A stretch of DNA of 64,000 nt from Verrucomicrobiota bacterium (GTDB lineage Bacteria; Verrucomicrobiota; Verrucomicrobiia; Chthoniobacterales; UBA10450): NCBI GenBank assembly GCA_003219175.1, contig QHPU01000041.1:61784-125783 (forward strand). Reading direction: 5' to 3'. Shown piece by piece: positions 61,967-64,000 of this stretch. Within the stretch, counting starts at the first letter, position 1; the number at the start of each line of letters is the position of its first letter. The notes beneath the pieces are model-generated. The model made no database searches. It was not told the DNA's origin and was given only the letters and a program-made list of their open reading frames with translations. The position numbers and the translations under genes were made by a program.

Positions 61967-63202
61967 TCACGCTGCCTTTCGGTCGCCCGCTTCCAACATT
62001 CGGACGCGCTGCTCTTTGAGCGGCAGGCGAATGGTCAGAGTCAATCCCTTGCCTTCCGTGCTTTCGATTGCGAGTTCGCCGCCGTGTTCGCGGACAATGC
62101 GTCTAACGATTAATAGACCAAGACCGGTCCCGGACGCCTTGGTGGTGTAGTACGGTTCGAAGACGTGACTTAGAGCTTCCGCTGACATTCCCCCGCCATT
62201 ATCGATGAAACTGACGCGCACATGCGATTCGTCCCGATCGGTTCGAATCCGCAAGATACCGCGCCGTTTCATCGCTTCGAAGCTGTTTTTGATAACGTTG
62301 TAAAACGCCTGCTTCATCTGGTCTCGATCGAGTTGGAGTAATGGCAGGTCGGAGTGCAGTTCCGTTTCCACGACAATGTCGCGCGCTTCGATTTCGGCGG
62401 CAAAGAAACGCACCGCTTCCTCCACCATGGTGTTGATATTTCCCGGCCGGAGCTGTGGACGAGACGGCCGGATGGCCCGCAGGAATTGACTGACGATGGA
62501 ATCGAGCCGGTTGATTTCGCCGCGGCAGATATCGATGGAGTGCCGGAGTTCTTCGCGGGCTTTACCTTTTAGTTTGCGTGCCTGTCGCTCCATCAACTGC
62601 AAGTGGATGTTCAGGGAATTAAGGGGATTGCCTAGTTCATGGGCGACACCGGCGGCGAGCAAGGTGAGCGCGTTCAATCGCTCGCTCTCAATCGTTTTTT
62701 CCGCTGTCCGCCGGCTCTCAGTGATGTCGCGCATGATAATGGCGTAGCCGACCTGCTCCGTTGTCGCCGCGACTGTCGATCCCCGGTCCGAACTGGGCGG
62801 ATGGTTACCGGAGGTGTCGGCTACAGACGCATCTCGCGGCTCGATGACGAGGGGCACGATGTAAAAGTTGATGAACCGATTTCGCGGATAAAAAATTTCC
62901 AAGTCGCGGGTGACAGGACCGCCGCTGTGGGTCAACGCGTTCCAATCGAGACCCTGCACTCGTTCGTCGAGTTGTTTGCCGATCGAATCTTCGCCCGCGA
63001 GTCCAAAAAGCTCGCCAGCCGCGTCATTCAAATAGGTGATGCGTCCGGACGAATCGGTGACGATGATTCCTTCCTGAATGGCGTTGAAAACTGTCTCGAG
63101 AAATCCTTTCTCCTGAGCCAGGCGCAGCAAATAATTCTGCACCTCTTCCGGCCCGATCTTACCGAGCCGCCCGATCAATTTTTCGAGAAAGCCAGCTTTC
63201 AT
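61967..63202 (-). CDS. PAS-domain sensor histidine kinase
   Basis: 411 aa, no transmembrane helix, so cytosolic. A PAS domain (residues 34-160: ETVFNAIQEGIIVTDSSGRITYLND) precedes the dimerisation/phosphoacceptor His188 (GVAHELGNPLNSL) and the ATPase domain (NVIKNSFEAM, FIDNGGGMS, GTGLGLLIVRRI). It is expected to phosphorylate the NtrC-type regulator just downstream. About residues 124-150 of the PAS region (ASVADTSGNHPPSSDRGSTV) look like inserted repeat-related DNA. Its ATG overlaps the RAYT stop by 4 nt. Confidence 0.93.
   Translation of the reverse strand: MKAGFLEKLIGRLGKIGPEEVQNYLLRLAQEKGFLETVFNAIQEGIIVTDSSGRITYLNDAAGELFGLAGEDSIGKQLDERVQGLDWNALTHSGGPVTRDLEIFYPRNRFINFYIVPLVIEPRDASVADTSGNHPPSSDRGSTVAATTEQVGYAIIMRDITESRRTAEKTIESERLNALTLLAAGVAHELGNPLNSLNIHLQLMERQARKLKGKAREELRHSIDICRGEINRLDSIVSQFLRAIRPSRPQLRPGNINTMVEEAVRFFAAEIEARDIVVETELHSDLPLLQLDRDQMKQAFYNVIKNSFEAMKRRGILRIRTDRDESHVRVSFIDNGGGMSAEALSHVFEPYYTTKASGTGLGLLIVRRIVREHGGELAIESTEGKGLTLTIRLPLKEQRVRMLEAGDRKAA
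62785..62798. repeat. Degenerate family A-like copy inside the histidine kinase
   Basis: GGTCCGAACTGGGC resembles GGTCCGAGCCGGACTGGC with the central AGCCGG lost. It lies in the extra loop of the PAS domain. Confidence 0.4.
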
Positions 63203-63696
63203 CCTACCCTTTCCAATTCCTCTACCGTACCGGTGTAAGGCCAATCTTCGGCCGAATGAACCAGCCCCGCTCTCACCGGATTATGGCGAACATAGTCCCA
63301 TTTTTGCGCATAACTCTCTTCCGAACGCAGAACATGATCAAAGAACTCGCGTTGCCACAGACTGGTTTCGGCGTTGGCCTTTGTAGCCGCGGTCGCTGGC
63401 CGCGGCTGAACGGCGCGAATCCTTCGACTCGTCCACGACTTCCATTCCCGCATAAAATCAGAAAGCCTCTTGGCATCACGTTCCGGCGCACAGAAAAAAT
63501 GCACGTGATCGGGCATGATGACGTACGAACCAATTGCCGATTGATGTCGCTCACGTGCCTGGCGCAGTTCGTCTACCAAAACCTCCGCTATGACATCTCT
63601 TATCAGGATCGGGCGGCGTCTAAACGTACAGACCGTGACGAAATAGATTGGAAACTCAATGCATACGCGATCGAGACGCTGCAGATGTTTGTGCAC
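63199..63696 (-). mobile_element. REP-associated tyrosine transposase (RAYT)
   Basis: 165 aa Y1/HUH transposase. YFVTVCTFRRRPIL and YVIMPDHVHFFCAP give the HUH metal site (DHVH); WQREFFDHVLRSEESYAQKWDYVRHNPVRAGL holds the candidate catalytic Tyr. RAYTs nick single-stranded REP sequences and are thought to spread REPs rather than themselves. Between SRRIRAV and SLWQREFF about 15 extra residues (QPRPATAATKANAET) are encoded by a REP-like palindrome. An inverted copy of the same palindrome lies 58 nt upstream. The GTG start is accepted. The stop overlaps the kinase start (ATGA). Confidence 0.9.
63381..63407 (+). repeat. REP-like palindrome inside the RAYT coding region
   Basis: AGCCGCGG-TCGCTGG-CCGCGGCT core with perfect 8-bp arms, preceded by TTGT. 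It matches the copy at 63754-63780 at 26 of 27 positions in opposite orientation. Confidence 0.9.
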
Positions 63697-63753
63697 GCAA
63701 ATTCTTTAGCCGAAGTCATTGGTCTCGGCCAGCTGGGAGACTTTGCAGCAGAG

Positions 63754-63780
63754 AGCCGCGGCCGGCGACCGCGGCTACAA
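63754..63780 (-). repeat. REP-like palindrome between RAYT and pnp
   Basis: AGCCGCGG-CCGGCGA-CCGCGGCT followed by ACAA, the inverted counterpart of the copy in the RAYT gene. It lies in the 104-nt gap between pnp and the transposase. Confidence 0.9.
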
Positions 63781-63800: not shown

Positions 63801-64000
63801 CTACCGCCGCGCGCCATTTTGCACGGGCTCGGGGACCTGGCCGGTCTCGGCTTCGGCGCGTTCTTTCAAGGCAGCCTTGCGCGAGAGCTTAACCCGGCCC
63901 TTGTCATCGATGCCGATGCATTTCACCCAAATGACGTCGCCCACTTTGGCTACGTCTTCGGTGCGTTTCACTCGGAAATCAGCCAGCTCGGAAATATGCA
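63801..64000 (-). CDS. pnp: Polyribonucleotide nucleotidyltransferase, C-terminal end
   Basis: Reading the minus strand, the frame is open from the window edge to a TAG at 63803-63801 and encodes [20 protein letters not shown] ... [18 protein letters not shown]. This is the S1 RNA-binding domain at the C terminus of PNPase. About 66 residues are visible; it was not in the ORF track because it lacks a start. PNPase degrades RNA 3' to 5' in the degradosome. The rest of the gene lies beyond the right edge. Confidence 0.9.

Follow-up and report, generated by a model that had tools for sequence, protein, structure and literature searches.

The RAYT gene and its genomic site

We analysed a 64,000-nucleotide stretch of DNA (the window) from a member of the Verrucomicrobiota, which carries near one end a gene for a REP-associated tyrosine transposase (RAYT). 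The gene (63199..63696, minus strand) starts with a GTG codon at 63696 and encodes 165 residues. Its original assignment as a RAYT was confirmed by the NCBIfam profile NF047646 (E=4.6e-41; 140 bits against a curated cut-off of 80), by the Pfam family PF01797 (E=3.6e-11), and by 4er8, the structure of E. coli TnpAREP in complex with a REP hairpin, which is the best solved structure by both sequence (E=2.7e-9) and fold (E=1.4e-9). The HuH motif is formed by H64-V-H66 (63499-63507), and the catalytic tyrosine is Y135 (63292-63294), which aligns with Y115 of the E. coli enzyme; H64, H66 and Y135 are without variation in an alignment of 49 homologues.

The RAYT insertion site is bordered on its 3' side by a PAS-HisKA-HATPase histidine kinase gene (61967..63202, minus strand), identified by Pfam and placed as the border by synteny and empty sites, and on its 5' side by the 3' part of a pnp-like gene (63801..63998, minus strand) that is cut by the contig end. 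The pnp-like name was inferred from S1-type sequence in a fragment without a Pfam match, and this neighbour is conserved in nine genomes of the same genus, one of which matches in the last residues only. The pnp/kinase site lacks a RAYT in G001, G007, G008 and G009 (G001 has one REP there), holds a co-directional RAYT in the window genome (G000) and in G002, and holds an inverted RAYT of a different lineage in G003, G004, G005 and G010. Since the kinases of G000 and G004 are 92% identical while their RAYTs are just 57% identical, RAYTs probably reached this site twice. The stop codon TGA of the RAYT overlaps the kinase ATG, in the sequence ATGA (63199-63202), both in G000 and in G002, which suggests that the kinase became translationally coupled after the RAYT inserted upstream. 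The incomplete MAGs G001, G008 and G009, in which the site is RAYT-free, contain many A-type REPs, and no close homologue of the window RAYT was found in them; a RAYT of G001 (L094) is split over two frames.

An inverted pair of REPs

The two inverted 27-nt palindromes originally described here, identical at 26 of 27 positions, were both recovered. The internal copy (TTGTAGCCGCGGTCGCTGGCCGCGGCT; 63381..63407, plus strand) is a perfect REP with its GTAG tag on the strand opposite the RAYT gene, and the upstream copy (63754..63780, minus strand), inverted relative to it, lies between pnp and the RAYT. The copies are 96% complementary and spaced 346 nt apart. Each opens with TTGTAG and then forms an 8-bp stem with a short loop, and the RNA folds predicted for the GTAG strand have energies of -20.2 kcal/mol (internal) and -18.6 kcal/mol (upstream).

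The palindromes are REPs, as had been proposed, showing both the tag with a short palindrome and the many genomic copies that characterize GTAG-tagged REPs. Within the window the 27-mer is present at these two sites only, and dinucleotide shuffles yield none. Counted across the genome, it is not confined to the pair: it occurs at 16 places with up to three mismatches, and its 23-mer core, at the same threshold, at 33 sites across 3.24 Mb of genome, with none for the reversed-pattern control. This is fewer than the more than 100 copies given as usual in PMC2817692. With up to two mismatches this core is found in 10 of 11 genomes of the genus; beyond the genus it is seen in part of the family's other genera, and none of the sampled genomes outside the family contains it.

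The pair does bracket the N-terminal part of the gene, but its extent is codons 1-96 of 165 plus ~57 bp upstream rather than two thirds of the gene, and Y135 lies outside. A composite BIME-like unit able to move the gene, suggested from this arrangement, was rejected: the 400-bp REP-to-REP block is found once in the genome, only the REPs recur, and the block does not include the catalytic tyrosine. The window RAYT resembles the RAYT/TnpAREP REPtrons (Nunvar 2010, PMC2817692; 4ER8) in its HuH motif and single tyrosine, its gene-adjacent GTAG REPs and its fold. Nunvar 2010 (PMC2817692) describes RAYT genes as always flanked by two inverted REPs, whereas the window RAYT has one upstream REP whose inverted partner lies within its coding region, and no REP was found on the 3' side within 300 bp downstream. 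Flanking REPs characterize the typical REPtron arrangement; profile, motif and fold are what place the enzyme among the RAYTs.

The REP-encoded linker

The internal REP is translated in frame into PRPATAAT-type residues, which lie in the linker from helix α3 to the W-Q strand (W114-Q115), ahead of the catalytic tyrosine (RAVQPRPATAATKANAETS; 63361..63417, minus strand). The K86-to-W114 spacing is 28 in the window RAYT, whereas 81 of the 128 unique RAYTs compared have 17-18; the net gain relative to REP-free homologues is ~10 residues, not the roughly 15 first estimated. Only the K-to-W segment varies widely in length: the W-to-NP spacing is 25 in 125 of 125, P to H is 47 or 48 in every RAYT compared, and H to K is less strictly fixed. 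In the AF2 model, residues 78-96 form a helix and residues 101-110 a low-confidence loop (pLDDT ~56), which lends no support to a new domain; self-insertion into the transposase's own gene as an additional loop, also put forward originally, agrees with what we find. For a homologue carrying a whole REPIN (paired REPs) in the linker, the core of the predicted structure is still modelled confidently. In E. coli TnpAREP, K82 of α3 touches the REP stem and Q95, D100 and R104 touch GTAG (PMC8266576), and Q115 of the window RAYT corresponds to Q95. From these contacts the insert would, by analogy, be located inside the REP-reading region.

The RAYT orthologue in G002 is 80% identical to the G000 copy, and dN/dS between the two is 0.20, with 0.45 in the insert and 0.18 in the remainder of the gene. 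Because the gene with its insert is intact and under purifying selection, the insert is tolerated and the gene maintained, and the protein is presumably active. It had been considered that close homologues might share these residues without the palindrome; the closest, in G002, does have similar residues, but with a slightly degenerate palindrome.

Recurrence of internal REPs among RAYTs

A REP inside a RAYT frame is unusual, as had been supposed, but not unique. A REP or REPIN of the same locus lies inside the gene in 26 of 231 RAYTs, a set drawn mostly from Verrucomicrobiota with some other phyla and picked by similarity to the window RAYT, so that this fraction is not an overall prevalence. 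The inserts are spread over 15 separate clades and occur in either orientation, and one REP-bearing RAYT belongs to an Armatimonadota MAG. All 26 are positioned in the α3-to-W linker, the sole strongly length-variable segment of the protein. The REP types vary in sequence, orientation, frame and start, and by orientation and frame they encode peptides including PRPATAAT, AVAGIDDPG, VAAAVSGG and GRRLQ; complete REPINs are present in L144, L153, L302, L328 and L337.

Comparison of coding with flanking DNA separated two groups, the REP-bearing RAYTs with mostly 0-2 mismatches in 20 and the others with mostly 4-6. On average, internal REPs differ from their own flanks at 1.3 of 22 positions, and from flanks of other types at 5.9 (permutation p ~5e-5). 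The trees are built on few columns and are weakly resolved; the smaller one (134 columns), with weak forks left open, gives at least seven changes. Internal copies are degenerate in G002, G003, G004, G005, G010, G021 and G058, where the flanking copies are perfect, and internal hairpins are intact in L057, L062, L073, L075, L085 and others.

REP-bearing status was assigned by rule and inspection, from sequences of MAG assemblies. G026 (L095) has a loop REP in a frameshifted gene and was excluded from the trees, and RAYTs with a 26-residue linker and no detectable REP (L079, L086, L115, L122 and L137) were scored as REP-free. Low-mismatch self-matches in L105, L128, L137, L164 and L318, which arise from tandem gene duplications or other repeats and involve no loop REP, were removed by hand; L335, with two mismatches but no in-gene hairpin, was taken as chance. 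The REP-like palindromes near L302, L320, L323, L328 and L337 have GGAGGG-like tags rather than GTAG. The F-type RAYTs L080, L085, L124 and L144 apparently sit in an mla-like operon with permease and ATPase genes on either side (named by eye).

REP-like hairpins occur at 1.49 per kb in the loop and at 0.021 per kb in the remaining coding sequence, a ~70-fold difference, with none in the loop for reversed controls. In the flanks their density is 4.05 per kb within 150 bp, 0.45 at 150-400 bp and 0.06-0.11 beyond 400 bp. The gradient around the gene and the contrast between loop and remaining coding sequence fit deposition near a source combined with tolerance at a single loop. The loop also exceeds flanks at comparable distance (1.49 versus 0.45 per kb), so a factor other than tolerance may favour it.

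Origin of the inserts

We consider it likely that REPs of a RAYT's own family are dropped near its gene, that only the linker survives a hit, and that the insert is mostly a drifting passenger. A REP, or a REPIN later cut down to one REP, would have entered the gene in frame. Judging from the hairpin densities, RAYT activity would deposit REPs mainly right beside the RAYT gene, where only the linker between α3 and W114 would accept added residues and hits elsewhere in the gene would be purged. The transposase would have stayed functional after insertion, as purifying selection suggests, and in most lineages the insert would then drift; since many inserts decay, most look like passengers. The insertion itself would have been performed by the RAYT, though A-type REPs are also present in congeneric genomes that yielded no close homologue of the window RAYT, so a different enzyme could have placed the REP. 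Taken as a whole, the original prediction holds for the RAYT, the REPs and self-insertion, and finds no support for the composite unit and the new domain.

A bolder reading is conceivable but doubtful: RAYTs may insert the sequence they recognize into the very part of the protein that reads it, repeated capture of a REP or REPIN in the linker between α3 and β4 shifting REP specificity or giving the gene a self-targeting brake, so that repeat and reader would evolve together. That selection keeps the internal REP as a regulatory site, with transposase output limited by RAYT binding to or nicking of this REP on a single-stranded template or by an mRNA hairpin that holds back translation, we regard as unlikely. 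The ~15 origins, each with the REP type found at its own locus, the intact hairpins and the excess of hairpins in the loop over outside DNA at comparable distance are in keeping with it, but many internal copies have decayed beside perfect flanking ones, nonsynonymous change is quicker in the insert than in the remaining gene, 205 of the 231 RAYTs have no internal REP, and orientation is variable although binding is expected for the GTAG strand only. That the peptide itself retunes REP recognition, giving feedback between repeat and reader, seems quite unlikely. The loop does lie between the stem-reading α3 and the putative GTAG reader Q115, by analogy with the E. coli contacts (K82 for the stem; Q95, D100 and R104 for GTAG; PMC8266576), but its sequence is wholly different according to orientation and frame, and it is modelled with low confidence.

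It is very improbable that most inserts descend from a single ancient insertion whose internal copy gene conversion has kept in step with the changing flanking REPs. The A, A2/A3 and B inserts are alike in orientation and frame (PRxATAAT-like), and because the forks among them are weakly resolved, these could derive from one old insertion. However, C+ (L062) and D- (L073) are nested within REP-free genes, the types differ in orientation, frame and start, and internal copies degenerate instead of being kept uniform. A chance palindrome or an assembly artefact has negligible probability, as shuffles and reversed controls gave none and the orthologue in a separate genome, G002, has the same insert; we found nothing in its favour. 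Deposition near the gene with tolerance at the linker is the reading we prefer. One and the same loop has received its own locus's REP in ~15 lineages and offers a natural record of how REPs insert, in which orientation, frame and empty sites serve as controls. This record bears on how REPs are placed and on whether RAYTs act close to their own gene. It also shows that the RAYT fold takes 10-30 additional residues next to its DNA-reading face, and surveys of non-coding DNA only would overlook such REPs.

Relation to other in-frame repeats

In the open-licence literature that we searched, we found no account of one RAYT loop receiving own-type REPs time after time, and an earlier report may exist elsewhere. 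The Rickettsia palindromic elements (RPE) are similar in being palindromic repeats in frame within protein genes, and differ in sequence. We know of no link between RPE and a transposase gene of their own. The complete REPINs in some RAYT loops correspond to the inverted REP pair described as the mobile unit by Bertels and Rainey 2011 (PMC3116915). GTAG REPs in frame within proteins are also documented in Opitutus terrae, another member of the Verrucomicrobiota (Di Nocera 2013, PMC3733652); the accessible text of that paper describes no RAYT-internal REPs and mostly different insertion sites, whereas here one loop of RAYTs is hit repeatedly, each time by REPs belonging to its own locus. Eight other Pfam-verified genes of the window genome contain in-frame REPs of the window family, so that, together with the Opitutus terrae cases (PMC3733652), in-frame insertion itself is already known. 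In this genome, genes with in-frame REPs encode an S58 peptidase, UvrD, DnaE, SMC, a class I tRNA synthetase, PurL and 2-oxoglutarate dehydrogenase E1 (L031, L038, L040, L048, L051, L055 and L056). In a fused E1-E2 2-oxoacid dehydrogenase (G000:C162; L030, L042 and L052), the lipoyl domain is surrounded by two complete REPINs, both in frame (VAAVADRG...PRPATAAT).
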